This document shows, piece by piece, positions 6,820 through 64,000 of a DNA stretch of 64,000 bases. Source of the stretch: Alkalimarinus sediminis (GTDB taxonomy: Bacteria > Pseudomonadota > Gammaproteobacteria > Pseudomonadales > Oleiphilaceae); assembly GCF_026427595.1 (NCBI RefSeq), contig NZ_CP101527.1, positions 3,467,001 to 3,531,000 on the forward strand. The letters are read 5' to 3'. How positions within the stretch are numbered: position 1 is the stretch's first letter; each line of letters starts with the position of its first letter. Made by a program: the position numbers and the translations under genes. The notes below the pieces were generated by a model. It made no database searches. It was not told the DNA's origin and saw nothing but the letters and a program-made list of their open reading frames with translations.

Positions 6820-6829
6820 GCCCAGGGAC

Positions 6830-7645: not shown

Positions 7646-7794
7646 AACGCGGCATCCCAAATGTAAATAGTGGCAACCTCTAAAAGCAGGTTTATGTTTA
7701 TTATCATTAAAGTTAACTGTTAGTGGTCGCTTACTACCTATACTAGCAGAGTTGATGTTGGACACAACTTATGCTGACACTGCAGGCCAGCCAG

Positions 7795-8394: not shown

Positions 8395-8449
8395 CGCCTT
8401 TCTTCCCGATAATGATCTTTAGTGGATTGAATTACGTTAAACTATCGTT

Positions 8450-9256: not shown

Positions 9257-9327
9257 TTTTTTACCTGAATAATAATGTTTCTAATACTGCTCTACCGTGC
9301 ATTAAAGTGTGGAGGCACCGGTGTAAT

Positions 9328-10773: not shown

Positions 10774-10846
10774 TATCCCCCTTGCGTTTTAACATCAGCT
10801 GAGCCCTCACAACCCTTAAACACATGCTCTAACTAAAGCAAGCACG

Positions 10847-11659: not shown

Positions 11660-11727
11660 CTATTTGTTCTCTACTTTGATGGGAGTTGAAATTTAGTAGC
11701 GCGCGTTCTAATTCGTACGTCACAGAT

Positions 11728-12723
11728 TCAAGTGGCGGATAATGCCCCACCTGAGAGTCCAGCCATTAAAGCGGCCGACTTTATTGCTTGCTCTAGACTG
11801 CCTGTATCTGCCTTTCCCGTTCCGGCTAAGTCTAATGCAGTGCCATGGTCAACCGAAGTACGAATAATAGGTAACCCCAAGGTAATATTCACCGCAGACC
11901 CGAAACTTTGATATTTTAGCACGGGAAGCCCTTGATCATGATACATAGCCAATACAGCATCGGTATCCGCCAACCATCTTGGTGTAAACAGCGTATCAGC
12001 CGGCAGCGGACCAATCAGCGTCATACCTTGTTCGCGAAACTCTTCTAACACAGGCGCAATGGTGTCGATCTCTTCCATCCCCATATGACCGCCTTCACCG
12101 GCATGAGGGTTTAAGCCTGCTACTAAAATTTTAGGTTGCGCTATGCCGAACTTGGTTACTAAGTCATGATGCAAAATCGTAATAATCTGACGCAGCAGAG
12201 GTTTTGTTATCGCCGCCGACACATCTGCAAGGGGTAAATGTGTGGTTACCAGAGCCACCCGCATTTGCTCAGACGCCAGCATCATCACGACCCTATCAAC
12301 ATTACACAGTTCTTGTAGAAATTCAGTATGCCCTGTAAACGCAATACCAGCATCATTGATAACCCCCTTATGAACAGGTGCGGTTACCATGCCAGAGAAT
12401 AATCCGTTGATACAGCCTTCAGCTGCAAGGGTCAGGGTTTTTAACACATAGTTTGCGTTTTCAGCTGAGAGAATGCCAGGTTCAACGGTATCATCAAGGG
12501 AAACAGGGTATACCGATAAATGACCTGGTTTACAGGTAGCGGCAGAGCCAGGTGTCCAAAGCTCGGTGACCAGAGGCAGCCCTAGCGCCTCTGCTCGATC
12601 TTGCAACAGACTTGATGAACAAACCATAACAATAGGCTCAGCAAAGCCTTTTTGAGCAAGCTGAATGCATAAGTCGGGACCGATACCTGCTGGCTCCCCC
12701 GCAGTAATGGCAAGTGGTAACAT
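11728..12723 (-). CDS. pdxA: 4-hydroxythreonine-4-phosphate dehydrogenase PdxA
   Basis: 331-aa enzyme of pyridoxal phosphate biosynthesis, oxidising 4-phosphohydroxy-L-threonine with NAD. The start is placed at [18 protein letters not shown], the conserved N-terminus, although the frame extends 23 codons upstream. Metal-binding histidines are seen in [18 protein letters not shown] and [11 protein letters not shown]. It follows surA by 84 bp and precedes rsmA, the usual cluster. Confidence 0.96.
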
Positions 12724-12807
12724 TTGGCTAGCCTTTATACAGCAAGTGAACGGCATGCTTGCAACAAATAGTCTAGTTGCGATGCTTGCCAAAAAAATCC
12801 ATTAAAG

Positions 12808-14148: not shown

Positions 14149-14178
14149 AAATCAGCACTACCTAATAGTATTAAGTTC

Positions 14179-14202
14179 AAGACTGAGCGTGGAGTCAGTC
14201 TT
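14179..14202. other. 8-bp hairpin between lptD and surA
   Basis: AAGACTGA / TCAGTCTT stem with an 8-nt loop in the 136-bp lptD-surA spacer. There is no U-tract, so partial attenuation or mRNA processing is only possible. Confidence 0.3.
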
Positions 14203-14284
14203 TAAAAATCATATGTTATACGGTTGATAGACGATCATATCTACCTATCGAGACCTGAAGCTTTAGAGCACAAAAGCGACCATA

Positions 14285-16645
14285 TTAATGATATAAACGC
14301 TCTCGACCTAAATATCCTGGCACCTGCTCATCAATCTCTTCACCACTTTCGCCAAAGCCAGCCAGACCTTTTAACTCAATTCGAAATAAAATGGTGTGAG
14401 ATAACTCAGAGTCATCCGTTAAATAACTGCTTGATAACACCTGAGCACGCCAACAGCAACTGCGGTACTCTAAACCTGCCAATGTACCAGCGGTTCTCTT
14501 GTCGTTAAGATCATACAACCAGCGACCAAAGGCACTTATTTTTTTCGTCACAGGGACAATAGTAGAGATGTTAGCTTGCTCCAAAGGTGCATCATCGTCT
14601 TTGTAGGTGTGCCCTAGGTTTAGCACATAGCCATAATCCTGAGTGTGAAAGCTAAGATTACTATTACCTTCAACCGTTTTGCTCTCGCTATCATCCCATA
14701 AGCCGGTTACTTTTAAATCCAAGCCTTGTACCGGTGTAAGAATAAACTCGCCTGCAAAAGGCGACTCACTTTCCGAGTGACTACCCTCTCCATCGAGGTT
14801 TACATTTTGATCTTCTAAGTAGTAAATTTTACCAATACTGAAGACTGCACTATCTATACCGCTAGAAAGCTGAGTAAATCGTGATGTTAGACCTAGTGTG
14901 ACCCTGTTGTTGTCACCTACTCTATCACCTCCGACAAATCGATCGTCTGAGAATAACTGCGAGTAGCTAAATGACTTCACGGAGGTATCAAAATCTGGAA
15001 TATCGTCCTGTTTAACTTCTGGTGAGTAGACGTAAAATGCCCTTGGTTCTAATGTTTGATTGTAGTCTTGAGTGCCAAACTGAAAGGGTCGATCAAAATA
15101 GAGCCCGGTATCAAGAGTCGCAAATGGCACTGTACGACTAATATCATCATCACCTAACCCATTGTCCTCCAGAGCATAATTAGTCTGGTCAACTTTTAAT
15201 GAGGGCGTAAGGTACCCCCACAGCTGTTCCATTGGCATCGAGACTTCGGGCTTTATTCTAAGTCTATTACCCTGCACTTTATCATTACCCGTCAAGAGCT
15301 CATCATCACGAAAGAAGTAGGTATATTGAGAATCGACAGACCAGTCGAATACTTCATTATTCCAACTACCGATTAAGTTGAGCTCAGGCAGTCTAGAGTA
15401 TGGTTTGTTAGCCTCGGTAACAGTCGAGTCAACTGTTTGATAACCATGCACCGAACCATCAAACTGCCAGACATCACCGATATAATTCACCTTCCAAACT
15501 CGGTCCAGGTGGGTCTCGTTTTCTATACTCAAACTACGAGCCAAGTCTTCAAGATAATCATTATCGCTAACCACGTTATAGTCGATAGTAGACTTCCAAC
15601 CATCCGCTATTGTCGACTCATTCTCAAAGCTTAGCCCCCAGCGCTGGCCGTCTCTCCAAGGGTAGTCTTTAATATGCTCTTCATCTTCATGAATATAGCC
15701 AAGATTTATTCTTGACTCGCCAAAAGTATTTAAATGCCGCCCTTCAAGCTCTGTGTAAAGGCCTCGCCCATGTATATATGCGGGGGTTAATGTGGCGTCA
15801 TAGTTTGGTGCCAAATTGAAGTAATAAGGAGCCGTAAACGCAGCACCTCGCCCCACATTTGAGCTACCGATAGAGGGGTACAGAAAACCACTCTTTCGAT
15901 CATCGTTAATCGGGAACGTCACCCAAGGGAAGTAAAAAATAGGGACATCCTGAACCCTGAAACGAAAATGCTCGGCATAGCCAACACCTTCTGCCTGATC
16001 AAGGGTGATTTCACTGGCGGCAACGGACCATGATTTATCATGAGGGTCGCAGCGAGTGATGGTGCCATCTTCGATGATAACTATATTTTCTGAAGGCCTC
16101 TTGACCGAGGCAGACTGGCCACGAAACCCTTCTTTATGGGCCAAGTATGAGGACTCTTCAATGGTAAATGCCCCAGACTCAATATCATAATTAACTTTAT
16201 TTCCAGTCAACAACATCTCTGGGCTTCTTAAACGAATGTCACCATTCACCGTAACACTGTTAGCTTTCTGATCTAAATTGGCCGTATCACCATTTAATAA
16301 GAAGGGCGCTTGGTATATTTCAACTCCTCCTTCTATATAGGCATTTTGCTCAGCATCAAATGACGCTCTATCGGCCCGTACCCTCATAGGGTTTTGAGAG
16401 GGGTCTTGTGAAACAGGAGGACTGTCATCAGGTAGATAAGAAGGTACAACATAGCCCCCTTTGCAGATGGCAGACAACTTACTCCGCTCAGCTTCGCTCA
16501 TCAGCTCTTTGGGCCGCCAATCAATTTCTGCTGCGGTTTTAGCGCGCCCTTCACCTGAATTCGACTCGTCAGCCCATGCCTGCGTAGAGGCTATAGTCAG
16601 CGGCAGCACTAGTAAGTGTGCAAATTGATAAACCGTTTTAGTCAT
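14285..16645 (-). CDS. lptD: LPS-assembly outer-membrane protein LptD
   Basis: 786-aa translocon that, with LptE, places lipopolysaccharide in the outer leaflet. The start is taken at MTKTVYQFAHLL, which gives a signal peptide ending at QAWA. Next come a beta-jellyroll OstA domain (about 75-200) and a long beta-barrel. Cysteines sit where the essential disulfides form: one near the N-terminus (SAICKGG), one in the jellyroll (TRCDPHDKSW) and a CC pair near the C-terminus (EYRSCCWRAQ). Head of the lptD-surA-pdxA-rsmA-apaH run and divergent from amgK. Confidence 0.96.
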   Translation of the reverse strand: MTKTVYQFAHLLVLPLTIASTQAWADESNSGEGRAKTAAEIDWRPKELMSEAERSKLSAICKGGYVVPSYLPDDSPPVSQDPSQNPMRVRADRASFDAEQNAYIEGGVEIYQAPFLLNGDTANLDQKANSVTVNGDIRLRSPEMLLTGNKVNYDIESGAFTIEESSYLAHKEGFRGQSASVKRPSENIVIIEDGTITRCDPHDKSWSVAASEITLDQAEGVGYAEHFRFRVQDVPIFYFPWVTFPINDDRKSGFLYPSIGSSNVGRGAAFTAPYYFNLAPNYDATLTPAYIHGRGLYTELEGRHLNTFGESRINLGYIHEDEEHIKDYPWRDGQRWGLSFENESTIADGWKSTIDYNVVSDNDYLEDLARSLSIENETHLDRVWKVNYIGDVWQFDGSVHGYQTVDSTVTEANKPYSRLPELNLIGSWNNEVFDWSVDSQYTYFFRDDELLTGNDKVQGNRLRIKPEVSMPMEQLWGYLTPSLKVDQTNYALEDNGLGDDDISRTVPFATLDTGLYFDRPFQFGTQDYNQTLEPRAFYVYSPEVKQDDIPDFDTSVKSFSYSQLFSDDRFVGGDRVGDNNRVTLGLTSRFTQLSSGIDSAVFSIGKIYYLEDQNVNLDGEGSHSESESPFAGEFILTPVQGLDLKVTGLWDDSESKTVEGNSNLSFHTQDYGYVLNLGHTYKDDDAPLEQANISTIVPVTKKISAFGRWLYDLNDKRTAGTLAGLEYRSCCWRAQVLSSSYLTDDSELSHTILFRIELKGLAGFGESGEEIDEQVPGYLGRERLYH

Positions 16646-51383: not shown

Positions 51384-51503
51384 TTAATCCAGTTGTTTTT
51401 TATCGCTGTCAGCTATGCTGACCAACCACATGCCCGCAATCATGCTAGGTACAAACAGAAAGCTCGCCATGTTTAATGATGCCAACGAAGAGATCCCATA
51501 CTT
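51384..51503 (-). pseudogene. 3' relic of a small membrane-protein gene, fused to a RAYT tail
   Basis: Last 39 codons of a gene (KYGISSLASLNMASFLFVPS... ending DKKQLD) whose 5' part is replaced by a RAYT-element fragment. The hydrophobic stretch suggests a membrane helix. Family not recognised. Confidence 0.45.
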
Positions 51504-51504
51504 T

Positions 51505-51624
51505 AAAGGGGTCAAAGCCCTTTTTGTCTGCTTACTTGGACGGCCACGCCTATCTTGCCCTACTTTCTTTACCAATGTATTTTCAATCATTTCCCTACCT
51601 TTAAGGGGTCAAAGCCCTTTAATT
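51505..51624 (-). mobile_element. deletion derivative of the RAYT element
   Basis: About 120 bp: the terminal repeat AAAGGGGTCAAAGCCCTTT, the last roughly 75 bp of the RAYT coding sequence, then another terminal repeat at 51601-51624. Coding similarity to the full copies (IENTLVKKVGQDRRGRPSKQTKRALTP) is nearly perfect. Non-autonomous. Confidence 0.85.
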
Positions 51625-51650
51625 CTCCAATTATTTGACCCTATTGATGC

Positions 51651-51671
51651 AAAAGGGCTTTGACCCCAATT
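51651..51671. repeat. RAYT terminal repeat, single degenerate copy
   Basis: AAAAGGGCTTTGACCCC followed by AATTA instead of TTTAATT. Confidence 0.7.
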
Positions 51672-51674
51672 ATT

Positions 51675-51903
51675 TTACCAATGAACACTAACTCCACGAC
51701 TCACAGCAGCCTGACACAATGCAGGTAAGTAATTAGGGTTATACTGAGCCATAAAATCAGCGATCGTCGTGCCTTGCCCTTCATCGGATCTTACAATCAA
51801 GCTGCTTTGCGGGTGATGTAATATCATACTTGCATATTCAAACTCTCTTTTTGGATGCAAATTTAGATCAAAAAATATCTTTGAGAAAATATAAGGCGCA
51901 TCG
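51675..51903 (-). pseudogene. 3' fragment of an unrecognised gene, cut by RAYT insertion
   Basis: Open frame on the minus strand from the RAYT element edge to a TAA, about 75 codons (…APYIFSKIFFDLNLHPKRE…, ending AVSRGVSVHW). The coding-like codon use and sharp edge at the insertion suggest the tail of an interrupted protein. No family recognised; in this neighbourhood it could be an immunity or toxin remnant. Confidence 0.45.
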
Positions 51904-51907
51904 AAAT

Positions 51908-52624
51908 TTAAGGGGTCAAAGCCCTTTTTGTCTGCTTACTTGGACGGCCACGCCTATCTTGCCCTACTTTCTTTACCAATGTATTTTCTATCATTTCCCT
52001 AAAGTAATCATTACCTAATGGAGTCCCTGTTAACCACGCGTCTGATATTTTTTTCATTGAGTCTTTATCTAAATGGCTCTCGAACAGTGCTTGATATGCT
52101 TTAGTACGACTTACCTTATCCACACCTAATAACTCATAAATTGAGTGACTATCAATTAGTTTTATATTTTGAACCCCCGTATTATGACAAAAACTAGACC
52201 AGCGATAATGCGATGGCGATTCAACCATATTTGCCCTAACTGGATTCAACTCTATATACACCATCACAGAAAGAAAGTAGGTATCCTCTTGAACTAAGCA
52301 GGCCTTATAACGTCCTTCCCAAATTGAACCGCTCTTACCATATTTATGATTGATATAAGGCACATAGCGTCGCCCTATATATTGCATAAACAAGCTAACA
52401 TCCTCGCCGAGCTTTGGTGTGACAAGTAGGTGCACATGGTTCGTCATTAAAACAAAAGCATGGATCGATAAGCTGTATTTTTCCGCGGCCTTCTTTAGCC
52501 AGTACAAATACGTTGAATAATCTTGATCTTCGAAGAAAACCGCTGAGCGTGAGTGTCCTCGATGCACTATATGCACAGGGACGTTTGGTAAGTAAAACCT
52601 AGGTTTACGTGGCATGAATTTCAT
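51908..52624 (-). CDS. REP-associated tyrosine transposase (RAYT, Y1/HUH type), copy 1
   Basis: 238-aa Y1-transposase-like protein that nicks single-stranded DNA at palindromic ends. The HUH motif is HVH (63-65, in FVLMTNHVHLLV) and the likely nucleophile is Tyr123 (VYIELNPVRA). The C-terminus (RRGRPSKQTKRALTP) is basic. Protein identical to copy 2. Surrounding palindromic ends are its probable targets. Such proteins are thought to spread REP sequences. Confidence 0.9.
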   Translation of the reverse strand: MKFMPRKPRFYLPNVPVHIVHRGHSRSAVFFEDQDYSTYLYWLKKAAEKYSLSIHAFVLMTNHVHLLVTPKLGEDVSLFMQYIGRRYVPYINHKYGKSGSIWEGRYKACLVQEDTYFLSVMVYIELNPVRANMVESPSHYRWSSFCHNTGVQNIKLIDSHSIYELLGVDKVSRTKAYQALFESHLDKDSMKKISDAWLTGTPLGNDYFREMIENTLVKKVGQDRRGRPSKQTKRALTP

Positions 52625-52692
52625 CCTTGAAATTAAAATTGCTATACGTCTGCTAAATGTAACCTTGTACCCTCTCTAAATCAAACTTGCCT

Positions 52693-52716
52693 AAAAGGGC
52701 TTTGACCCCTTTAATT
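52693..52716. repeat. RAYT terminal repeat (5' end of copy 1)
   Basis: AAAAGGGCTTTGACCCCTTTAATT preceded by a conserved CTCTAAATCAAACTTGCCT flank. Confidence 0.85.
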
Positions 52717-52720
52717 TCAG

Positions 52721-52884
52721 GGCTAAGTGGCCTAAATCTTTTATGGCCTGCGCTTTTACTTCTTCGTTTTCGCTGGTTAAACCCGCGACCAATGCTTTGT
52801 TTTCTGGGTTACGCAATAAATCGTTCTTTAACTGCGTCGCCAGTGCATTATTGTGAAGCGTCTCACCCAAGTTAAAGGCGCCAA
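52721..52884 (-). pseudogene. orphan CdiA pre-toxin fragment
   Basis: Minus-strand fragment coding GAFNLGETLHNNALATQ, then the same residues as the N-terminal part of the module at 57206 (LRNPENKALVAGLTSENEEV...). 132 of 133 bases (52721-52853) match 58991-59123. It carries 10 residues lost there, and both ends are cut by RAYT repeats. Confidence 0.75.
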
Positions 52885-52953
52885 TTTAAGGGGTCAAAGC
52901 CCTTTTTTGCCTCTAAATCAAACTTATCTATAAGGGCTTTGACCCCTTTAATT
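52883..52953. mobile_element. miniature RAYT-derived element (about 70 bp)
   Basis: Left repeat AATTTAAGGGGTCAAAGCCC, a 25-bp spacer (TTGCCTCTAAATCAAACTTA...) taken from the RAYT 5' flank, then the right repeat TAAGGGCTTTGACCCCTTTAATT. A near-identical copy lies at 55321-55391. Confidence 0.8.
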
Positions 52954-52976
52954 CGCCTCTAAATCAAACTTATCTA

Positions 52977-52999
52977 TAAGGGCTTTGACCCCTTTAATT
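52977..52999. repeat. RAYT terminal repeat, single copy
   Basis: TAAGGGCTTTGACCCCTTTAATT with the same TCTAAATCAAACTTATC flank upstream. Confidence 0.8.
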
Positions 53000-53023
53000 C
53001 CTTTAATTAAATCAAACCTACCT

Positions 53024-53073
53024 AAAAGGGCTTTGACCCCTTTAATCCAAAAGGGCTTTGACCCCTTTAATTT
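53024..53073. repeat. two tandem RAYT terminal repeats
   Basis: Copies at 53024-53046 and 53049-53073, direct orientation, nearly contiguous. Confidence 0.8.
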
Positions 53074-53076
53074 ACA

Positions 53077-53259
53077 TTGGGACGCTTATTTAACATTACT
53101 GTGGATGAGCTACTTGGCGAGCAAGCTACAAAAACGAACGGTAAACGAGGGCCTTCATCTAAACTGCAACAGCAGATTGAGCGGGTAAACCTACTACCTC
53201 GCTCTAAACAGAAGTTTGTTATTGAGATGATTGATACTGTGATTCAACAGCAGGCATAA
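53077..53259 (+). pseudogene. 3' fragment of an XRE-family regulator
   Basis: About 60 codons: LFNITVDELLGEQ, then KRGPSSKLQQQIERVNLLPR and KQKFVIEMIDTVIQQQA, the C-terminal pattern of a common XRE regulator family. The DNA-binding half is missing: the frame enters from RAYT repeats. Followed by a terminator. Confidence 0.7.
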
Positions 53260-53290
53260 AAAACCCAGCTCACGATGGCTGGGTTTTTTA
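53258..53290. terminator. bidirectional terminator
   Basis: AAAAAACCCAGC / GCTGGGTTTTTT with a 9-nt loop, between the XRE relic (plus) and the immunity gene (minus). Confidence 0.85.
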
Positions 53291-53297
53291 CACATCA

Positions 53298-53729
53298 TTA
53301 ACTTTCTCTGAACCACCAAACTTCTACACTATTGGGAGCGGAGTTAATTAACTCTATATCTTCCCGACTATCATCAAAGTCTGTTCCGTCAGCAAGTCGC
53401 GGGAAAGAAACATTATTGATAAATCGATCATACTTTGTTTCACCGCAAGATGGGCAAGGAGGTAAGCTCAACAAAAATCTATTCAGCTTATCCTGATAGT
53501 ATTTCCTATACTCATCCCCACTAGATGGAACGGAGTTGGGTCTCACTTCAGAAAGCACGGTGTTTTCCCGTGGGTTAACCCAAACTATTGTATTGCAACA
53601 GAAGCATTGACCTCCTGCCGCCTCACTATCGTGCCAAGTAAAAAAGCATAATCCATGCTGTTCCATACCTTTGACTTTTGCTGGCTGAATGCCAAGCTCA
53701 TCTGCATATCGCAAATTTAAATTACTCAT
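53298..53729 (-). CDS. probable immunity protein to RES-type toxin (unrecognised family)
   Basis: 143-aa cytoplasmic protein with two cysteine pairs (CFCC near residue 43, CPSC near 95), possibly a zinc site. It begins inside the stop codon of a truncated RES-like toxin tail (ATGA overlap), the usual toxin-then-immunity arrangement. No known family recognised. The toxin is cut but this gene appears intact. Confidence 0.6.
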   Translation of the reverse strand: MSNLNLRYADELGIQPAKVKGMEQHGLCFFTWHDSEAAGGQCFCCNTIVWVNPRENTVLSEVRPNSVPSSGDEYRKYYQDKLNRFLLSLPPCPSCGETKYDRFINNVSFPRLADGTDFDDSREDIELINSAPNSVEVWWFRES

Positions 53730-53941
53730 GGTTTGATCTGCCTATCTAAAATTAGCTTAATCGCATCAGAGTCATAACGACCGTCAAACAAAGTAATTGC
53801 TTGGTTATTTCCTGCCTTCCTACTACTCGGATACAAAATCCCGTTATAGCCAGCGTCATACGCTTGGTTAGAAACTTGATTGGTGTAACCATAAACCGCT
53901 TTTTGCTGAACAGGATTATCAACTCTCGCTGTTAATTTAAT
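53726..53941 (-). pseudogene. C-terminal stub of a RES-domain toxin
   Basis: About 71 codons without start, entering from the RAYT copy 2 edge (a stop codon lies at the junction). The tail AYDAGYNGILYPSSRKAGNN and ITLFDGR resembles the C-terminal RES motif (GYDGI-YPS-R ... LF), the NAD-degrading toxin fold. The immunity candidate follows with a 4-nt overlap. Confidence 0.6.
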
Positions 53942-54751
53942 TTAAGGGGTCAAAGCCCTTTTTGTCTGCTTACTTGGACGGCCACGCCTATCTTGCCCTA
54001 CTTTCTTTACCAATGTATTTTCTATCATTTCCCTAAAGTAATCATTACCTAATGGAGTCCCTGTTAACCACGCGTCTGATATTTTTTTCATTGAGTCTTT
54101 ATCTAAATGGCTCTCGAACAGTGCTTGATATGCTTTAGTACGACTTACCTTATCCACACCTAATAACTCATAAATTGAGTGACTATCAATTAGTTTTATA
54201 TTTTGAACCCCCGTATTATGACAAAAACTAGACCAGCGATAATGCGATGGCGATTCAACCATATTTGCCCTAACCGGGTTCAACTCTATATACACCATCA
54301 CAGAAAGAAAGTAGGTATCCTCTTGAACTAAGCAGGCCTTATAACGTCCTTCCCAAATTGAACCGCTCTTACCATATTTATGATTGATATAAGGCACATA
54401 GCGTCGCCCTATATATTGCATAAACAAGCTAACATCCTCGCCGAGCTTTGGTGTGACAAGTAGGTGCACATGGTTCGTCATTAAAACAAAAGCATGGATC
54501 GATAAGCTGTATTTTTCCGCGGCCTTCTTTAGCCAGTACAAATACGTTGAATAATCTTGATCTTCGAAGAAAACCGCTGAGCGTGAGTGTCCTCGATGCA
54601 CTATATGCACAGGGACGTTTGGTAAGTAAAACCTAGGTTTACGTGGCATGAATTTCATCCTTGAAATTAAAATTGCTATACGTCTGCTAAATGTAACCTT
54701 GTACCCTCTCTAAATCAAACTTACCTATAAGGGCTTTGACCCCTTTAATTT
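53941..54751 (-). mobile_element. RAYT element copy 2
   Basis: Same layout as copy 1, about 811 bp; outer repeat 53941-53963, inner repeat 54728-54751. The two copies differ at only a handful of bases (for example near 54275-54285 and in the flank before the 5' repeat), implying recent duplication. It splits a RES-type toxin gene. Confidence 0.88.
53942..54658 (-). CDS. REP-associated tyrosine transposase (RAYT), copy 2
   Basis: 238-aa protein with the same sequence as copy 1, HVH at 63-65 and Tyr123. Stop codon formed by the terminal repeat. Inserted into a toxin gene. Confidence 0.9.
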   Translation of the reverse strand: MKFMPRKPRFYLPNVPVHIVHRGHSRSAVFFEDQDYSTYLYWLKKAAEKYSLSIHAFVLMTNHVHLLVTPKLGEDVSLFMQYIGRRYVPYINHKYGKSGSIWEGRYKACLVQEDTYFLSVMVYIELNPVRANMVESPSHYRWSSFCHNTGVQNIKLIDSHSIYELLGVDKVSRTKAYQALFESHLDKDSMKKISDAWLTGTPLGNDYFREMIENTLVKKVGQDRRGRPSKQTKRALTP

Positions 54752-54810
54752 ATTAGAAAGGTAGTATGCATTGGGATCGCTCTTGTAGTGAGTTGTCGGT
54801 TTGGCGATTT

Positions 54811-54896
54811 ACAGCCTACCACTTGAGCGATATTTCTTTAACTAATTCAATCAATTACGCCTTAAGTAAGTGCCATTCGGCTTTGACCCCTTTAAT
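54811..54896. repeat. short conserved segment with a RAYT-type end
   Basis: ACAGCCTACCACTTGAGCG ... GTAAGTGCCATTC, then GGCTTTGACCCCTTTAAT. A homologous segment at 59564-59628 has the same body but a different end (TACTCTGACCCC). Confidence 0.7.
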
Positions 54897-54902
54897 ATTT
54901 TC

Positions 54903-55320
54903 CTAAACCAAACTTACCAAAAGGGCTTTGACCCCTTTAATTTCAAGAGTCATTTGATCTTGAATGCTTCTGGGGTTTCGACTGATAACATTTCCGAACT
55001 TATCTGTATGAGGTAGATGGATTACATCGTCTACCTTGTTTGTAACAACACTCCCACCAAGCATCCTAGCGCTATCACCAGAAGATTCAATCCCTCCCGT
55101 CAAAATATCACTGGCGACATTCCCACCAACTACATTTTCACTAGAACCAGCCTCACTTTTAACCTGCTTAACAACTCTCTCAAGTACTTCTTTTCCAGAA
55201 CTTTTCAGTACAGTCCCTGCACCAATCGTGGCAATAGTTACAACTACTTCAGCATCACCTATATATTCCGCTTTACTGATTTCTATAAGCGCATCTTTAT
55301 CACCTTGCGCTTCTGCACAA
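54903..55320 (-). pseudogene. orphan CdiA toxin-module fragment
   Basis: About 139 codons in an open minus-strand frame between RAYT ends: a helical pre-toxin part (ALIEISKAEYIGDAEVVVTI...), then GGSVVTNKVDDVIHLPHTDKFG and RNPRSIQDQMTLEIKG. The last motif recurs, as I remember it, near the start of CdiA/Rhs nuclease-type toxin tips. Both ends are cut; the C-terminal LVSLV is repeat-encoded. Confidence 0.6.
54919..54943. repeat. RAYT terminal repeat, single copy
   Basis: AAAAGGGCTTTGACCCCTTTAATTT, splitting the toxin fragment's end. Confidence 0.8.
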
Positions 55321-55405
55321 ATTTAAGGGGTCAAAGCCCTTTTTTGCCTCTAAATCAAACTTACCTATAAGGGCTTTGACCCCTTTAATTTTTGACCCCT
55401 TTAAT
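55321..55405. mobile_element. miniature RAYT-derived element plus extra half repeat
   Basis: ATTTAAGGGGTCAAAGCCC, the CCTCTAAATCAAACTTACC spacer, and TAAGGGCTTTGACCCCTTTAATT (55321-55391), nearly identical to 52883-52953; a TTTGACCCCTTTAAT half follows. Confidence 0.8.
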
Positions 55406-55420
55406 CCAGGGGGTACACTT

Positions 55421-55804
55421 ATGGGCACCACGATCTTTTGGATGCTTCCCATGGAATTTGTACAGAGACTAATTACACTGCGTAAAGAGCGCGGTTTGAC
55501 TCAACAAGCGCTAGCTAATGCTATCGATTTGCACGTCAATCAGATTAAGAGGTACGAGGCAGGTACAGCACAGCCCACCTTGGAAACTCTGGTCAGACTG
55601 GCTAAAGAACTCAGTACAACACTCGATGACTTGGTGTTTGGTGAAGACCAGCGCGACCCAATTGATGATTTACGTTTGCAGTTTGAAGCGCTCAGTCAGT
55701 TTGATGAATCTGAGATCATGGTGGCTAAAGAACTGTTAGAGAGTTTGATTCTTAAGCACAATGCCAAGCGGGCTTTTGCTAATCAACTTCAAGGGGGCAA
55801 GTAA
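55421..55804 (+). CDS. XRE-family transcriptional regulator
   Basis: 127-aa DNA-binding protein. Helix-turn-helix at about residues 12-65 (RLITLRKERGLTQQALANAI ... RYEAGTAQPTLETL). The C-terminal part (DPIDDLRLQFEALSQFDE... LILKHNAKR) is a known tail of this family. The start at 55421 has a G-rich ribosome-binding site; ATG at 55442 and 55451 are alternatives. It overlaps the kptA-like gene by 1 nt (TAATG) and probably autoregulates the pair. Confidence 0.8.
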   Translation: MGTTIFWMLPMEFVQRLITLRKERGLTQQALANAIDLHVNQIKRYEAGTAQPTLETLVRLAKELSTTLDDLVFGEDQRDPIDDLRLQFEALSQFDESEIMVAKELLESLILKHNAKRAFANQLQGGK

Positions 55805-56358
55805 TGCCCTCTTCCAAGCAACTTAATAAAACCAGTAAATTCCTCAGTTTTGTATTACGCCATAAACCGGAAGCAATCGATCTTACGCTTGATGATAATG
55901 GCTGGGCCAATATTGATGAACTCATCAGCAAGGGAAATGATTCTGGTGAAGCGAGCAATCTAAGCAGAGAGCTTATTCAAGAAGTCGTTGATACCAGCGA
56001 TAAGAAGCGCTTTATTATTTCCGGTGATGGACGGAGCATACGCGCCAACCAAGGACATTCTATTCAAGTTGATTTGCAACTAAAGCCAATGACACCGCCG
56101 GAGTTGTTATACCACGGTACGGCTACTCGATTTCTCGATAGTATTTTGGAGGAAGGATTAAAACCGCAAGAGCGTCAGCATGTACATTTATCAACGGATA
56201 TTGAAACGGCTACCGCTGTTGGGCAACGGTATGGAAAGCCTGTAATATTAACAATAAAAGCCCTGCTCATGCATGAACAAGGCTTTCAGTTTTATTTATC
56301 TGAGAATAGTGTTTGGCTTACTGAATCAATCCCTAATATCTACATAGACGAACGTTAA
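55804..56358 (+). CDS. kptA: RNA 2'-phosphotransferase (KptA/Tpt1 family)
   Basis: 184-aa NAD-dependent enzyme removing the internal 2'-phosphate left at RNA ligation sites. Motifs: SKFLSFVLRHKPEAI, LDDNGWANIDEL, YHGTATRFLDSILEEGL, HVHLSTDIETATAVGQRYGK. Length is typical. Its real bacterial role is unclear; ADP-ribose chemistry and the position beside toxin debris suggest RNA repair or protection, which is inference. Translationally coupled to the XRE regulator. Confidence 0.92.
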   Translation: MPSSKQLNKTSKFLSFVLRHKPEAIDLTLDDNGWANIDELISKGNDSGEASNLSRELIQEVVDTSDKKRFIISGDGRSIRANQGHSIQVDLQLKPMTPPELLYHGTATRFLDSILEEGLKPQERQHVHLSTDIETATAVGQRYGKPVILTIKALLMHEQGFQFYLSENSVWLTESIPNIYIDER

Positions 56359-56366: not shown

Positions 56367-57209
56367 TCAGACTTTCCTAGAACAATTTTGAAGGGTTAGA
56401 CACTCACCAGATTCTCGTGGTAAAACCTCATTAGATATCAAACCTACCTGATCAGTGATTACTGTCATAAAACCTATTTCGTTAGACCTATCCCACTCAC
56501 CGATAGAGTATTTATTAATGGTTTTATCTTCCCCGCAATTAAATATCGCACGAGAGTCCTCAGCACCACTAAATGACGCATCCCAATAACTCATTCCTTC
56601 TGGGAATACTGTTTTTAATTGCTCTGAGGATAGTAATTCCGTGATTGCTTCAGAACGTATATTTGATGAAACCCACTTGCCATGCCAGAAAGCATAGGCA
56701 GCGGCTTCTTCATGATACACATCGCTAGCATAGTCCCACTTATCAACACCGAATGGGCGAGAAGCTAATAAGTCATCCACCTGCAAAAAGCTATCGTCTC
56801 TGATATTGAATTTAACCAGCTGTTGAAACACATGATATTGCCAGTAAAAAACCGGCGATATTGATACCCAACCAATTACAGCTTTGCCATAACCTAATGG
56901 GTTAACGGTCCTCACCATAAAGCTCAGCTCATAAGGATCAAACCAAATATCCAGCGGATCTGCATCCTGCGGGGGATACTTGGTTAGATAACACTTCGAC
57001 GAAGACCACGGAGAAGCCAAACGGAATCCGCCAGTCACATCACCTCCACCGATATACAGAGATAAAGCTTCTGCATGCAAATTCAATCCATATTTTTCTA
57101 ACGCTTCACTCAATTTCAAACCATTAGTATCAGAAGCACCTGCGCTCAAGTACTCTTGATACTTACTACACAAGTGAACTAATTTTTTTGCTTTGCTGTC
57201 ATCACTCAC
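56367..57209 (-). CDS. probable immunity protein for the adjoining CdiA toxin module
   Basis: 280-aa soluble protein with no family I recognise. Starts with MSDDSKAKKLVHLCSKYQEYL; contains YELSFMVRTVNPLGYGKAV and AAAYAFWHGKWVSSN. It overlaps the upstream toxin by 4 nt (ATGA), the classical CDI toxin/immunity arrangement, and no signal peptide is visible, fitting a cytoplasmic inhibitor. Larger than most CdiI. Confidence 0.6.
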   Translation of the reverse strand: MSDDSKAKKLVHLCSKYQEYLSAGASDTNGLKLSEALEKYGLNLHAEALSLYIGGGDVTGGFRLASPWSSSKCYLTKYPPQDADPLDIWFDPYELSFMVRTVNPLGYGKAVIGWVSISPVFYWQYHVFQQLVKFNIRDDSFLQVDDLLASRPFGVDKWDYASDVYHEEAAAYAFWHGKWVSSNIRSEAITELLSSEQLKTVFPEGMSYWDASFSGAEDSRAIFNCGEDKTINKYSIGEWDRSNEIGFMTVITDQVGLISNEVLPRESGECLTLQNCSRKV

Positions 57210-59128
57210 TGGGATTGCAACCTTTCTAATTGATTAATGTACTTTGCCCAATCATTAGCACCTTTAAAAGTGAAAGACGGCAATTCAGAACTACCCGTTA
57301 TTGGGAATTGACCAAATCGCTCTTGTTGCTGCAAAGACCTGATCATACCCGCCTGCCCCCAAGTTTCAGGCAAGTCACCTTTATAAAAAGATGTTCGGGT
57401 ACTTAAATCAGAGAATGCAACAGGCGATTCAAAACTTGAGAATCGTCCAGACTGAGTAAATGAAGTAGGCAATAGCTCGTCAAAGCCATGAATATTACCA
57501 GGTATTTTATCAAGTCCAGCCCAGTCAGCTGCAACTAAACGACGATGATCCAAAGTCATGAAACCATCATCCAGTCGAATAAGGTCTGGAGTTCCCTTAG
57601 AGAGATCCCAACCATTTAGCTTCATTTCAGAAGCAATATTCAAGACCGGAGTGCCATCACCTGTTTTAATCGAAACTGTAGCTTGGGTATATTTAATATC
57701 GCTTAAATTCACCAAATCCGGGCCATTACTGTTTGGAACAACATTTCCAACCCGCGTCGTACTTATACTTCTCTCTGTAACATCCCCATCCAATATCCTA
57801 ACACTATCACCCCCCACTTTCGATAAAGGTTCTCCACTCCCCCCATCCGGCAATACCTTTAATAACTTAACTCCCCCAACAACCTCCGCAAGCATGGTCA
57901 CCGAGTCAACAATATTCTCCTTCTCATGCTGAACCAGTGCGACTCGATCCCCTTGCAGCTCTGCAATAATCTTATTCCCTTCAGAGCCCTCTTTAGGCAA
58001 TTCGGTAATAGATCGATAGAGACCTGACAACGAATCAGCAATCAGGTCTATAACCTTTGTCTCATGCAACAGTACATTTACATCTTTACGGAGCTGCTGA
58101 GTAGCTTCTCCCATTACACCATTTTCAACCCAAGGTGATCGACCCTCTTCTGTGGCGTAGTTTGTTAGCCATCCTTTTTCGACCCGGTGATCGATTCCGT
58201 CACTCACGCCATTTTTTTCTATTTCTTTAACATGGCTATTGTTTAACTCACTGTTTTGATAATCTTCAGGCTTTGCCAACTCAAACGCTAAATGCATCCC
58301 GCCATTCGCATCTCTATGCATTTCACCGTCTTGTTTAGCCGCATCAATCAAATATGCTTTAGCAACAACATCTTCTTCAATATGCGTTTGGTTCGCCCAC
58401 GTCTCATCGATCATCGACAAAGCTTGTTGAGTTAAGGTGCGTCTTGCTTCTTCTGGTGTTATTTTTTGCTGCTCTGCGTAAGCATCTGCAATACGGTCTA
58501 TCAGTAGGATTTCACCCTTAGTCGCTTGTCGGTAATCGACCTTTGCATTCCCTACCTGATTTGCCGCTTGCGTACCTTTTGCGACGGCTTGGCTATTTTT
58601 GAGGTTTAAGTTGGACTGACGCGTATAAGAGGCATTCAGGTTGCCGCCATTTTCGCTGACCGCTTGAGTGATTCGGTCGGCAAACTGGCTGCCAAACACG
58701 CTTCCTAATGCTTCTTGCGTTGCATTATCATTCGGGCCAAAGAATAGCCCATCTTGACCTTGGTAAGCCTGTGTTTCTAGCACTTCATGACCTAATGTGT
58801 TCATGAGGTCTGTGCCGGTTAAGTTCTTATTGCCTACATCAAGCAGGATGTTACCGGCCTGTGCATGGCCAGGGTCGATAACCACACCGCCCTTGACGTC
58901 ACGGAGCCTGCTATCTGCCAGTGAAACGCTTGTGGTTTTTTCTCCGTCATAGAGGTTTATGTCAGATAAATCTAAACCAAATTTAGATTGGGCTAAGTGG
59001 CCTAAATCTTTTATGGCCTGCGCTTTTACTTCTTCGTTTTCGCTGGTTAAACCCGCTACCAATGCTTTGTTTTCTGGGTTACGCAATAAATCGTTCTTTA
59101 ACTGCGTCGCCAGTGCATTATTGCGAAA
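57206..59128 (-). CDS. displaced CdiA C-terminal module (5' truncated): pre-toxin plus unknown toxin tip
   Basis: About 640 codons open from the edge of a miniature element; a stop codon sits at the junction, and a TTG at 59086 is the only plausible internal start, so native translation is doubtful. The N-terminal part (ALATQLKNDL ... AQSKFGLDLSDINLYDGEKT, GHEVLETQ) is pre-toxin-like. The C-terminal 170 residues (SDIKYTQATVSIKTGDG, DLIRLDDGFMTLDHRRLVAA, GNIHGFDELLP, ETWGQAG) may be a toxin domain I remember from CdiA/Rhs tips with a 'DHRR/DNRR LVAA' motif, of unclear activity. An immunity candidate overlaps its end. Confidence 0.65.
   Translation of the reverse strand, partial: FRNNALATQLKNDLLRNPENKALVAGLTSENEEVKAQAIKDLGHLAQSKFGLDLSDINLYDGEKTTSVSLADSRLRDVKGGVVIDPGHAQAGNILLDVGNKNLTGTDLMNTLGHEVLETQAYQGQDGLFFGPNDNATQEALGSVFGSQFADRITQAVSENGGNLNASYTRQSNLNLKNSQAVAKGTQAANQVGNAKVDYRQATKGEILLIDRIADAYAEQQKITPEEARRTLTQQALSMIDETWANQTHIEEDVVAKAYLIDAAKQDGEMHRDANGGMHLAFELAKPEDYQNSELNNSHVKEIEKNGVSDGIDHRVEKGWLTNYATEEGRSPWVENGVMGEATQQLRKDVNVLLHETKVIDLIADSLSGLYRSITELPKEGSEGNKIIAELQGDRVALVQHEKENIVDSVTMLAEVVGGVKLLKVLPDGGSGEPLSKVGGDSVRILDGDVTERSISTTRVGNVVPNSNGPDLVNLSDIKYTQATVSIKTGDGTPVLNIASEMKLNGWDLSKGTPDLIRLDDGFMTLDHRRLVAADWAGLDKIPGNIHGFDELLPTSFTQSGRFSSFESPVAFSDLSTRTSFYKGDLPETWGQAGMIRSLQQQERFGQFPITGSSELPSFTFKGANDWAKYINQLERLQSQ
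58991..59123 (-). repeat. duplicated pre-toxin DNA segment (second copy at 52721-52853)
   Basis: 133-bp segment with one mismatch to 52721-52853. Evidence for displacement of CdiA C-terminal modules by recombination at shared pre-toxin sequence. Confidence 0.85.
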
Positions 59129-60079: not shown

Positions 60080-63000
60080 TTATTTACTGACACCTATTTC
60101 TTTTGGAATTACACTTGCACCTTTCTCCGCTGCATGTCGAGCTGCTGTCTTGGGTGAGCCTGTTGGGTTTCCTGGTTTTGAAGGGATAATAACCTTATCA
60201 ACATTATTATTAATAAGCTCAGGAGAACAGTTAGAGCAAGGCACCTGATCTACAGCAACAGTATGTGGTTTCGGTTTACCGTCTAAATCCTTTAGAACTT
60301 GTAGTTCTGCATGAATATCACCGGCTGCTGTTTTTCCTGGGATACTTTCTCGAACTGGAGTTAGGTTACCACCTCCATCTCGACCAACGGCAAAAGTTGC
60401 CTGCCCTGAAGCATTTTTTGCCGCCCGCTCTCTAACAAGCGAATCAACCATATCCTGATCAGATGCGGCACCGTGACGACTTGGGCCATTATTCCCATCT
60501 GTAGAATAACCACCCTGCCCGCTTCCTTGTGAAGTACTCCCCCCTTTGCGACTACCTACACCTATTCCCAGTATAGTACCTGCTGCAAAACGAACACCGT
60601 CACTTATATCTATTGATGAGGTGCCTAACACAGGGTTATCATCAGGATATTCATTCTCAAAAGCAATTAATTTTGAGAATGTTTCACTATCAGATTTGCT
60701 TATGTAGCCGCCTGCCGCATGGTTAATAGCTTCATCGACTTGTTGTATGTGATCGCCTACCACATGCTCGATACCATAATTAAAAGCATAGCTAACACCT
60801 TGTTTTAAAGGGCCTCCTGTCGCAAAACCAATAGCATACTCCAAAGCAGTGGCTGCGCTTGGGTTCGTGTTAGTTAAGTCATCTATTTCTTGCTTAACTT
60901 TACCAAGCCCAGCTACTCCAACTTCCAATCCGCTCGGGTCGCGAGCATTAACAGTTATAACAAGCTCACCTGGCTCCGATAATTCGGATATAGTATTGAC
61001 TGGCGGCTTAATAGAACTAGCTTCACCTAGGTGACGTTGTGCTAACTCAGGATTCACTGCAAGCTTTTGATTACCTCGCTCTATGCCTTCGATCGCGTAC
61101 TGCAATTTTTCTCTTGCAATAATTTCATCGATTTCATCTTGACTGAGATCTGCCCGAATCAGTTCATCAATGACTTTCTCACCTGTTTCACCAAGCCTAC
61201 TCAGCTCTTCAGGTAAGTTTGTGCCTAGCACCTGTATTTCGTCATGTACAAAGTCAGCAGCATCTACAACTGCCTGACCTGCGTCTAAGGCGAGGTCTAG
61301 AGTTTGTTCAAAATTACTAGCTATATCCCCTCGACCCTCTTCACTAAACACCCGATGATCAACCGTCACACTCGCATTCAGCCCTCCAATTTCAATATCC
61401 TGAGTGATCTCCTGCGCATTACTAATATCTCGATTCAGGCCTGTAATATCAGTTTGTGATTCTCCCCCAACAGTGACCTTTCCATTACCAACCGTCGCGT
61501 AAGTGGTCTGAGCTTTTTCATGCCCGTTATAATGCCCACCGATGGTCGTTTGGCCGGTTTGTGGGCCGGCGCTATCATTGGCGGGTTTGTCTGTATTAGA
61601 AGCTTGACCATCAATATTGACGCTGACACTGAGGTTAAACCCTTCTGATTTTGCCGTATCGGTGTCATATAGATGATTAGCGGTGAGGGTGTCGGTATTG
61701 AGTGTCAGGTTGCCTTGATCGACCCATTGCCCCTGCTCATCGTATGTTGCATTGGCAATAATTGCGCCGGTTAGCGTGGTATCTTTGGCGTTGATAACAA
61801 CCGATTCGCTGCCGATAATTTGAGTTTGGTCATCGACCCAGCGTCGTTCGCTTTCGCTGTCAGACTTTTCTAGGCCTGCATTAATAGAGGTTAAGCCGCT
61901 GCTACCAAACCCTGCGCCGGCATTCGCGCCTCTGGTTTGACTATTGCTTCGGTCGTAGTTTTGCAGGCTTTCTACCACTAACGTGTCGGTGGCTATATTG
62001 ATCTGGTCTGCCTGTAGCGCTGCGCCTGAAACAGTTAATGTGTCGCTTTGACTGCTTAGGTTGGTGGCGACAATTTGGCTATTTCGATAATGCAGACTTT
62101 CGCTGTCTGCGTCGCTATTTTTGAACCCTGCTTGTATATTTCCGCTTAGGCCTTTGGCGCCATAACTCACGCTAATGCTTTGGTTATCTGAGTGAGTTTC
62201 GCTTTTGCTTGATGCGGTGCTCTCTCCGGCATTAATGAGGATGTTTTGACTGCTGAGGTCTGCATTGCCGCCCACCCATAGGTCTGACCCCGTCAATGCG
62301 AGCTGTTGACCGCTTGAGAGTGCTGCATTTCCGCCTGCGATCATCTGACTGCCATTCCACTCACCGGTTTGGGTTTGTGTGACGGTTTCTGTTTTTTCGC
62401 GTACGGCACTTCCGCTCGCATAGAAGCCGGCGGTTGCGGTAGAGCCTGCAGCGGTTGCGCCACTTAAACCTAAGGCGATGACGGCCTGACCTAAGTTAGC
62501 CGTGGCTGCCGCAAGGTTCATCTCATAGTATTTGATGTCTTTTTCTCTTAGCTTGCCATCTTTAACTTTTTGTTTGGCTTCGCTTAGTGATTTTCGGGCT
62601 TTTGATACCCCTTTTTCGGCTTCAGCCACGGCATCAACTGCGAAGCCAACATCAACATAGGCGTTTCGAACGGCGGCGGTGATCGTTTGCGTTTCTTTAC
62701 TGTATTTATCAGTGATCGCTTGCTGGTCTTGCTTACCTGTCACCGTGAGACTGTCTGCGGCGTTGAGTTCAAGGTCTTGCTCGGTTGTGATTTGAGCCGC
62801 CGTAATGTCGATATTTTTATCTGCGTTCAGGCTGATATTGCCTGCGCTGAGTTGACTGCCCTTCCAAGTGGTAGTGGTCACTGACTGGCTTTCTTTTTCT
62901 TTGGCGATCTCGATACCGCCTAGCGATACTTCATCTTTGTTTAACGCCATGCCCAGGCTTTTTATAGACTCTGACGTTGATGATTGATAGCGCTCACTGC

Positions 63001-64000
63001 TATCGGCCACGGCATCAATTTGAATATCACCTGAGTTTATGATCAGGTTTTCAGTGACATTGACCTCTGCTCCGGCAAGGCGAGTTAGTCCTTCACTTTC
63101 AATAGATAGATTCTCGGCCGCGATGTATGAGCCGTTTTGGATCGTTTGCTGAGTTCTTAATTCTTGGCTACTCGCAACCTCCATTGCAGGTGCATCAATC
63201 ACGCCCCCCATCATCATGGCAAAGCCAATAGATGCCGCCTTAATAAGCTCTTTAACCGGCCCTTTAAAGCCTTTACTTTTTTCGTGCCATTGCTCATTAG
63301 TGAGTTCGATGGTATCGACAATAACGTTCTCTGCACCCGATCCTGTGGTGGTCACTGTTGCTTGAGATGCCTTTGTAAGGATATTGCCGCCGATGATCAT
63401 ATCGCCTTCTGCCTGCAACTCAGAACCTAATAGGTGTATGTTACCCGCAGTGTTTAGGCTTAAATCGCCACCACTATTAACGCTTGATGAAATGGCGTTT
63501 TGTTGTTGATACCCGTGAGACTCATTACTGTACTTTACGGCGTTTTCTTTTTTCTCCTGATAGGCGTAGTTTTCTTGGTCAACGGCCGCGATCAGCTTAA
63601 TATTCTCAGCAGCATCGATAGTTACATTACCCCCTGCCTGAACCGTTGAGCCATAAGCCAGAAGGTTTTGACCGCTACTCAGTGTTAAGTCAGCACCCGA
63701 AATAAGCGCAGTGCTTTGATGATTAACCGCACTAGACTCTGATGACGTACGTTTATCTGAGCTCCCATAACTACCTTTTCGGCTGTAGCTAAATGATGCC
63801 TCTTGGGTATCTGCTACGGCCAGTAAATTGATATTGTCAGCCGCATTGATAACTAGGTTATCTGCCGCGTTTACCGACGCACCTTCTAGCAGAATATTAC
63901 CGCCAGAGGCGACCGTTAAATCGCCTCCACTTTGCAGTTCGCTCGTTAAATGATCTCGACGATCTAACGTTTGATAGTGAGAGCCGCCACCGAATTGATA
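60080..64000 (-). CDS. cdiA: CdiA/FhaB-like two-partner exoprotein, C-terminal part with deaminase-like toxin tip
   Basis: At least 1306 residues; the frame is open to the window edge, so the 5' end lies beyond (the earlier TTG at 63418 is not a real start). Most is a repetitive beta-helix of hemagglutinin repeats (GGNxxLxA, LTLSSGQNLLAYGS). After about residue 900 come helical pre-toxin regions (VNARDPSGLEVGVAGLGKV, ATGGPLKQGVSYAFNYGIEH). The C-terminal 120 residues hold HAE (DIHAELQVL) and PCSNC, the zinc-binding signature of nucleic-acid deaminase toxins. The protein is secreted through a CdiB-type channel and inhibits neighbours. The immunity candidate follows. Confidence 0.88.
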   Translation of the reverse strand, partial: YQFGGGSHYQTLDRRDHLTSELQSGGDLTVASGGNILLEGASVNAADNLVINAADNINLLAVADTQEASFSYSRKGSYGSSDKRTSSESSAVNHQSTALISGADLTLSSGQNLLAYGSTVQAGGNVTIDAAENIKLIAAVDQENYAYQEKKENAVKYSNESHGYQQQNAISSSVNSGGDLSLNTAGNIHLLGSELQAEGDMIIGGNILTKASQATVTTTGSGAENVIVDTIELTNEQWHEKSKGFKGPVKELIKAASIGFAMMMGGVIDAPAMEVASSQELRTQQTIQNGSYIAAENLSIESEGLTRLAGAEVNVTENLIINSGDIQIDAVADSSERYQSSTSESIKSLGMALNKDEVSLGGIEIAKEKESQSVTTTTWKGSQLSAGNISLNADKNIDITAAQITTEQDLELNAADSLTVTGKQDQQAITDKYSKETQTITAAVRNAYVDVGFAVDAVAEAEKGVSKARKSLSEAKQKVKDGKLREKDIKYYEMNLAAATANLGQAVIALGLSGATAAGSTATAGFYASGSAVREKTETVTQTQTGEWNGSQMIAGGNAALSSGQQLALTGSDLWVGGNADLSSQNILINAGESTASSKSETHSDNQSISVSYGAKGLSGNIQAGFKNSDADSESLHYRNSQIVATNLSSQSDTLTVSGAALQADQINIATDTLVVESLQNYDRSNSQTRGANAGAGFGSSGLTSINAGLEKSDSESERRWVDDQTQIIGSESVVINAKDTTLTGAIIANATYDEQGQWVDQGNLTLNTDTLTANHLYDTDTAKSEGFNLSVSVNIDGQASNTDKPANDSAGPQTGQTTIGGHYNGHEKAQTTYATVGNGKVTVGGESQTDITGLNRDISNAQEITQDIEIGGLNASVTVDHRVFSEEGRGDIASNFEQTLDLALDAGQAVVDAADFVHDEIQVLGTNLPEELSRLGETGEKVIDELIRADLSQDEIDEIIAREKLQYAIEGIERGNQKLAVNPELAQRHLGEASSIKPPVNTISELSEPGELVITVNARDPSGLEVGVAGLGKVKQEIDDLTNTNPSAATALEYAIGFATGGPLKQGVSYAFNYGIEHVVGDHIQQVDEAINHAAGGYISKSDSETFSKLIAFENEYPDDNPVLGTSSIDISDGVRFAAGTILGIGVGSRKGGSTSQGSGQGGYSTDGNNGPSRHGAASDQDMVDSLVRERAAKNASGQATFAVGRDGGGNLTPVRESIPGKTAAGDIHAELQVLKDLDGKPKPHTVAVDQVPCSNCSPELINNNVDKVIIPSKPGNPTGSPKTAARHAAEKGASVIPKEIGVSK

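Follow-up and report, generated by a model that had tools for sequence, protein, structure and literature searches.

The stretch of DNA analysed here (the window) comprises 64,000 nucleotides of Alkalimarinus sediminis contig NZ_CP101527.1, and between its positions 51503 and 55408 it carries a cluster of pieces of a small transposase element, which is assigned below to the TIRYT group. Upstream of the cluster, a contact-dependent growth inhibition (CDI) locus has its complete cdiB-cdiA pair. An earlier note on this DNA had reported, at 51904-54751, two elements of about 810 bp encoding identical transposases and differing at few bases; both elements are present as described, each with a length of 813 bp, albeit in a cluster that reaches further to either side. 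Aligned in register from 51904 and 53938, the two copies show seven mismatches over 816 bp, three of which are the outermost bases and four of which lie inside the 813-bp block. The likeness between them stops at the inverted ends, and apart from other element pieces the flanks are unalignable. The coordinates of all features are compiled in the table.

Table. Features of the element cluster and its surroundings (window coordinates), and clpV-linked relatives (locus coordinates)
Feature	Position	Strand	Remarks
DUF6691 (YeeE-like) gene, last 39 codons	51387-51503	minus	broken off at cluster edge
3' fragment of transposase gene with one terminal repeat	51503-51597	minus	95 bp; 98% to both full copies
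Miniature inverted pair of ends	51600-51668		about 70 bp
Open 76-aa fragment ending at element 1	51678-51905	minus	toxin-tail-like by position only; no Pfam family above cut-off
Element 1, full TIRYT element	51905-52717	minus	both terminal inverted repeats
Transposase gene of element 1	51908-52624	minus	238 aa; NHVH, WE, YIELNP; Pfam Y1_Tnp 3.3e-14; fold nearest 4er8
CdiA fragment	52721-52882	minus	32 aa recur at 100% in orphan CdiA piece 57206-59086
71-bp miniature element	52883-52953		right end 26 bp, left end 45 bp
Tandem single ends	52954-53075		cores at 52978, 53026, 53051
143-aa open reading frame	53298-53729	minus	immunity-like by position only; Pfam scan: no family
RES-domain protein, C-terminal piece	53729-53938	minus	Pfam RES 3.5e-05, profile 95-137 of 157
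Element 2, full TIRYT element	53939-54751	minus	both terminal inverted repeats; 99.5% to element 1 over 813 bp
Transposase gene of element 2	53942-54658	minus	protein identical to that of element 1
One truncated end and one single end	54882-54944		
125-aa open fragment between ends	54945-55319	minus	pretoxin-like by position only; no Pfam family above cut-off
71-bp miniature with extra truncated end	55320-55408		
Orphan CdiA piece	57206-59086	minus	32 aa in common with 52721-52882; Pfam scan: no family
CdiA part, from start codon within window	60080-63418	minus	Fil_haemagg_2 4.6e-30
clpV-linked TIRYT-like gene	L069:9070-9768		
clpV-linked TIRYT-like gene	L117:9663-10355		
clpV-linked TIRYT-like gene	L143:9580-10278		
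clpV-linked TIRYT-like gene	L145:9715-10413		
clpV-linked TIRYT-like gene	L146:9671-10369		
clpV-linked TIRYT-like gene	L147:9670-10368		
clpV-linked TIRYT-like gene	L153:9645-10346		

In coding orientation the element is built as AATTAAAGGGGTCAAAGCCCTT - gene - AAGGGCTTTGACCCCTTWAATT, with the stop codon of the transposase inside the right end, and the terminal inverted repeats of the 813-bp unit are AATTWAAGGGGTCAAAGCCCTT. The 15-base end core AAGGGCTTTGACCCC has 15 matches in the window, all of them exact although up to two mismatches were allowed, as compared with a mean of 0.12 and a maximum of 2 in 100 shuffles. GGGGTC/GACCCC occurs 17 times in the cluster, i.e., in the 15 cores and in two truncated ends; the "16-odd" terminal repeats counted earlier are a fair figure, because the truncated ends raise the total to 17. 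The genome-wide count of the end that the earlier note had suggested was run with the 15-base core. The 4.23-Mb genome has no exact copy beyond these 15, which occupy 3.9 kb (51508-55383), and one copy with a single mismatch is found outside the cluster.

In the 71-bp miniatures at 52883-52953 and 55320-55390, the right end directly adjoins the left end; together with the inverted pair of ends at 51600-51668 they correspond to the 70-bp miniature elements described before. The first of them is 100% identical over 71 bp to a miniature of the sister species (L059:8957-9027) and the second 98.8% identical over 86 bp (L059:8942-9027), and one and the same miniature is found between three different flanks across two species. 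The left end alone folds barely above shuffles (z -1.58); the two ends of the miniature pair with one another (z -7.14). What had been taken as a 120-bp deletion derivative does contain a 3' gene fragment with an end, of 95 bp only; it abuts the truncated DUF6691 gene and is followed by a second end in the same orientation. Within the miniature at 51600-51668, positions 51634-51648 read GACCCTATTGAT, which is the outer end of the Hahella-type element, surrounded here by ends of the genome's own type; two TIRYT types may have formed a mosaic at this point, unless the match is fortuitous.

The transposase belongs to the HUH/Y1 class and has its NHVH, WE, and YIELNP motifs at residues 62, 102, and 123. 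Its predicted structure (mean pLDDT 83.9) is nearest to 4ER8, a REP transposase in complex with a REP hairpin, followed by ISDra2 and IS608, and the sequence search concurs in 4ER8 as the nearest solved structure. As to the C-terminal helix-turn-helix (HTH) extension that characterizes subclass 2.1, the model has helices 187-199 and 206-216 beyond the core, and the Pfam scan gave no HTH family. The NCBIfam models for RAYT (NF047646) and IS200 (NF033573) score 69.4 and 25.5 bits, below their cut-offs of 80 and 55 bits, respectively. On reading the ends, no GT[AG]G foot was found; they carry instead the motif GGGGTCAA, which matches seven of the eight positions of GGGGWSAS. According to the accessible part of PMC6006769 (Quentin 2018), this latter motif is shared by many TIRYT ends, and subclass 2.1 is listed in Table 1 with NHVH, W[EQ], YIELNP, and ~238 aa, is equated with Bertels group 1, and probably corresponds to the TIRYTs of PMC3733652. 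Because length, NHVH, WE, YIELNP, and inverted repeats agree with the published description, the name TIRYT (TnpA_REP subclass 2.1) suits the protein better than that of a RAYT of the type associated with GTAG-footed repetitive extragenic palindromic (REP) sequences. Of the earlier interpretation as a RAYT with terminal repeats, recent mobility is retained; the usual REP-associated RAYT is given up in view of the GGGGTCAA ends, the weak fold of the left end, and the 15 local repeats. Among near-full-length homologs with flanks, inverted repeats scoring at least 12 are present in 96 of 144, compared with 8 of 294 random placements, and 90 of the 96 contain GGG; the commonest end core is GGGGTCAG (41 cases). 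Outside the clpV-linked group treated below, H, H, and Y are retained in 150 of 152 homologs.

The age of the element can be judged by comparison with the sister species (G001; the window genome is G000), the site comparison having covered G001 and three other congeners. The G001 locus contains one element, one miniature, and different small open reading frames (ORFs), and its five end cores all lie within 1.4 kb at this single copy. The comparison of insertion sites advised by the earlier note places the G001 copy at another site of the same CDI locus, with 97.9% identity over 810 bp and a synonymous divergence (dS) of 0.063; three chromosomal neighbour genes of the two species have a dS of 1.87 or are saturated. 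When cdiA is compared by quarters toward the toxin end (60080-63418, minus strand, with L059:2780-8176), dS amounts to 0.81, 0.29, 0.28, and 0.20, and from this drop a recent exchange of the toxin end is therefore deduced. On the sequence divergence, the element is younger still than the exchanged cdiA toxin end.

Element copies were followed into other lineages among 170 homolog matches; pairs of at least 85% were compared, with the ends inspected for 16 pairs and the 1.5-kb flanks for 18. In L210, L174, L184/L185, and L100/L103, the conserved block is bounded by repeats on both sides, and likeness of the flanks within 1.5 kb is confined to element pieces, with one additional 51-bp match at 78% in L174. 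In Thiodiazotropha (L170:8923-12145 versus L173:7933-12248), the two genomes share a 947-bp block that has the element on one side in one genome and on the other side in the other; at the far junction, L173 has a whole element and L170 a single 30-bp end. Genome G022 has four copies or remnants within one Rhs locus. No DNA-level match of the element to plasmids was obtained; protein matches comprise 16 plasmid records at E 1e-30, each below 60% identity, and one viral contig.

Several of these lineages offer observations in their own right. In Marinicella gelatinilytica (L174:8634-8945), the TIRYT copy abuts an IS3 orfB-like ORF that stops after ~100 aa, and the remainder of the IS3-family transposase gene was not found on the other side of the copy. 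In genus g12, the gene that borders the whole L140 element on its left flank borders a transposase-less end pair in L121, L124, L125, L128, L141, and L149, as if element and end pair could replace each other. The g12 loci L141:5566-14187 and L124:1051-11263 contain end pairs ~40 bp apart around small genes, which we take to be PIN-like and nucleotidyltransferase-like, and some end pairs at such loci are spaced by ~800 bp. An integron-like gene-cassette array was considered for L124/L141 and rejected in favour of what looks like the usual dispersal, because in L123/L126 the repeats stand between longer, ordinary-looking genes. A unit that joins an Rhs tail to an immunity-like gene, an IS110 gene, and a TIRYT is repeated in G002 (L061:13855-18115; L062:172-6125), where 12 kb accommodate three near-identical TIRYTs; the tail in L061 belongs to Endonuclea_NS_2, the small gene there coding for a SUKH protein. 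In the tubeworm endosymbionts L212/L197 (~1900-14800), TIRYT ends are strewn among repeated modules.

Here and in the Hahella-type genus (g5), the copies stay local: they lie in a single CDI or Rhs locus and, within it, in the part with orphan toxin and immunity genes. The g5 end sequence CAATAGGGTCAGAGTCATTG was found at 22 places in all. Its exact copies lie within 9.4 kb of one Rhs locus in G022 (eight of eight; 7.0 Mb) and at the respective loci in G027 (two of two) and G037 (two of two), and G032 has its one; single mismatches mark four copies, one of G022 and three of G032, none of them at the element; five copies have two mismatches, G008 contributing three and the elements of G032 and G037 the other two. 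The search gave no copies in G044, a member of g5 with an exact match to Hahella sp. record L166 over 1269 bp. A second own 6-base core in the same orientation stands within 30 bp outside 22 of 174 ends (87 elements), in 17 of the 22 cases at 12-20 bp, while 12 control windows gave a mean of 2.58 (range 1-7) and the opposite orientation gave 3. In our reading, elements have landed beside ends already in place; repair or slippage might give the same picture. A preference for landing beside own ends would, on these statistical grounds, explain the local build-up.

The setting of the cluster is an orphan CDI module array with toxin-tail and immunity fragments downstream of full cdiBA, immunity roles being given by position only. 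The earlier note, right as to mobility, had overlooked this toxin setting, i.e., the toxin-tail pieces and small ORFs downstream of cdiB-cdiA. Whole cdiA encodes 2857 aa with a two-partner secretion (TPS) domain and haemagglutinin repeats, and CdiB has a ShlB domain (profile matches in L072, 1.5e-46 for the CdiA TPS domain and 1e-50 for ShlB); both run past the window edge. The DUF6691 gene that is broken off at the cluster edge is intact in the sister species (L059:11184-11606; DUF6691 9.9e-44; 84% over 76 bp to the remnant), and the RES-domain piece is interrupted at element 2. Adjoining the orphan toxin region, an HTH_3-type regulator ORF is followed by a KptA/Tpt1-type RNA 2'-phosphotransferase gene (Pfam 5.9e-50) at 55376-56358 on the plus strand. 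Orphan cdiA-CT/cdiI and rhs-CT arrays with insertion sequence (IS) elements are already on record in the accessible part of Poole 2011 (PMC3150448).

The cluster is most probably the footprint of a recently active, IS-like mobile TIRYT element, an 813-bp unit with one HUH/Y1 transposase gene. As for a mobile IS, near-identical whole copies occur at different sites and are bounded by terminal repeats. Recent mobility of the gene with its own ends, as proposed in the earlier note, appears well supported by the near-identical copies in different flanks, the copy in the sister species, and those of other lineages. Several observations weigh against this interpretation. Recombination can likewise multiply copies, and between species the element may have travelled along with cdiA. 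The identity of one G002 pair extends 400 bp into the flank, another shares a nearby 227-bp block, a G022 copy lies together with a new gene between 525-bp direct repeats, and the flanks of the endosymbiont pair L197/L212 are shared, reshuffled modules. Six out of six clpV-linked g5 pairs, and likewise seven g12 pairs, can be aligned across both flanks, i.e., they are fixed; element-sized blocks in L182/L199, L208, L152/L154, and L139/L156 are without a repeat on both sides. A clean empty site was not found in tubeworm endosymbionts or Marinicella, and when the flanks of 138 elements were searched over all loci analysed, none of the 84 pairings, on reading, joined both long flanks. Passive copying, in which an element unable to move by itself is carried along as toxin/immunity modules duplicate or are exchanged by homologous or illegitimate recombination, would account for the G002 repeated unit, the G022 direct repeats around one copy, and the L197/L212 modules, and orphan modules are known to shift in this way from the available portions of PMC3150448 and PMC5361080. 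It is nevertheless an unlikely explanation for the window, where the copies have no common flank and their identity ends at the repeats; the same pattern recurs in L210, L174, L184/L185, and L100/L103, and miniatures with two ends are hard to derive from module exchange.

The proximity to toxin genes raises the question of whether the transposase would move or excise toxin/immunity cassettes bounded by its ends. For this, 22 of the 53 matching family genomes, chosen by us for their closer homologs, were scanned for Rhs cores, and the five genomes of the genus for FHA (PF13332). Of 47 homologs, 10 have an Rhs-core or FHA match at a distance of up to 5 kb and 13 at up to 10 kb. For the eight of these genomes that consist of one main contig, the number within 5 kb is 8 of 20, versus 0.17 expected from the genome fraction. 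Toxin-linked copies occupy four separate places on the drawn tree, and in four Hahella-type genomes an Rhs-type gene borders the copy on one side and a series of small genes on the other. However, these family loci are not independent, since g5 represents one orthologous site and G000/G001 another, and the rve control (5 of 69 within 5 kb versus 10 of 21; Fisher p 9e-5) is biased by nine genomes picked for showing the link. In the wider set of 80 named loci, many of them on short contigs, an Rhs match within 9 kb occurs at two and a CdiA match at none, by which a general TIRYT-toxin link is rejected; the link would therefore be a trait of the family's elements or of hot spots, not a rule. On reading of the window, no adjacent inward-facing end pair encloses a gene besides the transposase, and a dedicated toxin-module exchange machinery is very improbable. 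That TIRYTs settle in the orphan toxin/immunity part of CDI/Rhs loci and help to turn it over, landing beside their own ends and thereby making one locus a nursery of elements where modules are trimmed, cut, and swapped, is a doubtful proposition as well. An ordinary RAYT in an early phase, i.e., a newly arrived domesticated transposase spawning REPs nearby, would fit the local repeats, as new REPs have been proposed to form near a transferred rayt in the accessible part of Nunvar 2010 (PMC2817692); with two full gene copies with ends, of which already the second weakens such a reading, no GT[AG]G foot, a weak single-end hairpin, and a RAYT score under the cut-off, it is almost certainly not what is seen here.

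Assuming a mobile TIRYT element, a very young element common to the sister species at the same CDI locus would most likely have arrived with the exchange of the cdiA 3' part and its toxin/immunity region. Local multiplication would then have left behind a pair of complete elements, one truncated element, miniatures of 71 bp formed by internal deletion, and ends in solo or stub form. By analogy with IS608, ISDra2, and TnpA_REP, the HUH/Tyr site would catalyze single-strand cleavage and joining at the ends.

Within this one family, comprising the window elements and their relatives, three ways of life can be distinguished: some copies are mobile and have ends, others have ends but are fixed, and a third group is fixed and lacks both the ends and the first catalytic histidine. 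In the mobile pairs (G000-G001, g5, Thiodiazotropha, and endosymbionts), the ratio of nonsynonymous to synonymous divergence (dN/dS) is 0.12-0.29; in the fixed copies with ends of g12, it is 0.03-0.08. The third group forms a clade situated 9-120 bp behind clpV in type VI secretion operons, with TssF, TssG, and Clp ATPases as neighbours in those scanned with Pfam. Terminal ends are found in none of the seven members analysed, compared with 77 of 118 others, 22 of 24 in g12, and the 8 of 294 random placements. The first HUH histidine is replaced by Glu in all seven, four of which have also lost the second histidine. Six clpV-linked g5 pairs have dN/dS values of 0 to 0.024, indicating strong purifying selection; six of the seven genes entered this comparison, L153 being left out, and six of the seven proteins the drawn tree. 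The clpV-linked gene is apparently an exapted, catalytically dead transposase, judging from its sequence. L172, another clpV neighbour at a distance of 3.1 kb, stands outside the clade count.

For this transposase class, mobility is without evidence in the accessible parts of PMC6006769, PMC8266576, and PMC2817692, and no prior report of TIRYT mobility or of RAYT-toxin or type VI-linked cases was found in a literature mostly without subscription papers. Through the three ways of life of the family, the passage from a selfish element to a resident gene becomes accessible to direct study, and single-strand transposition with long terminal repeats can be examined in a concrete system.

Summarizing, the window element can be compared with several known systems. 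With the TIRYTs or TIRtrons of Di Nocera 2013 (PMC3733652) and subclass 2.1 of PMC6006769, as far as the available portions of both describe them, it shares the length of 238 aa, the NHVH, W[EQ], and YIELNP motifs, and terminal inverted repeats of the GGGGWSAS type, which are repeated and grouped in some genomes. The published representatives are of low copy number (mean 1.9) and ~49% mutual identity, with no evidence of gene mobility in those portions, whereas the window contains near-identical whole copies between differing flanks as well as miniatures, all restricted to one locus. The E. coli RAYT/TnpA_REP (4ER8) has the same HUH/Y1 fold and is the nearest structure by sequence and fold; unlike there, the window is without GTAG-footed hairpins, its repeats are few and local, and the C-terminal part of the protein is longer. 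With IS200/IS605 elements (IS608, ISDra2), the Y1 fold, the IS-like copy behaviour, and the lack of a target repeat by eye are in common, in contrast to the Y motif ending in NP and not Q, the long terminal inverted repeats, and an element without a tnpB-like ORF. The setting, in which a full toxin gene is followed downstream by small genes and truncated toxin tails, is that of the orphan arrays of PMC3150448, in the accessible part of which the interrupters are termed IS elements and transposon genes, TIRYTs being unnamed.

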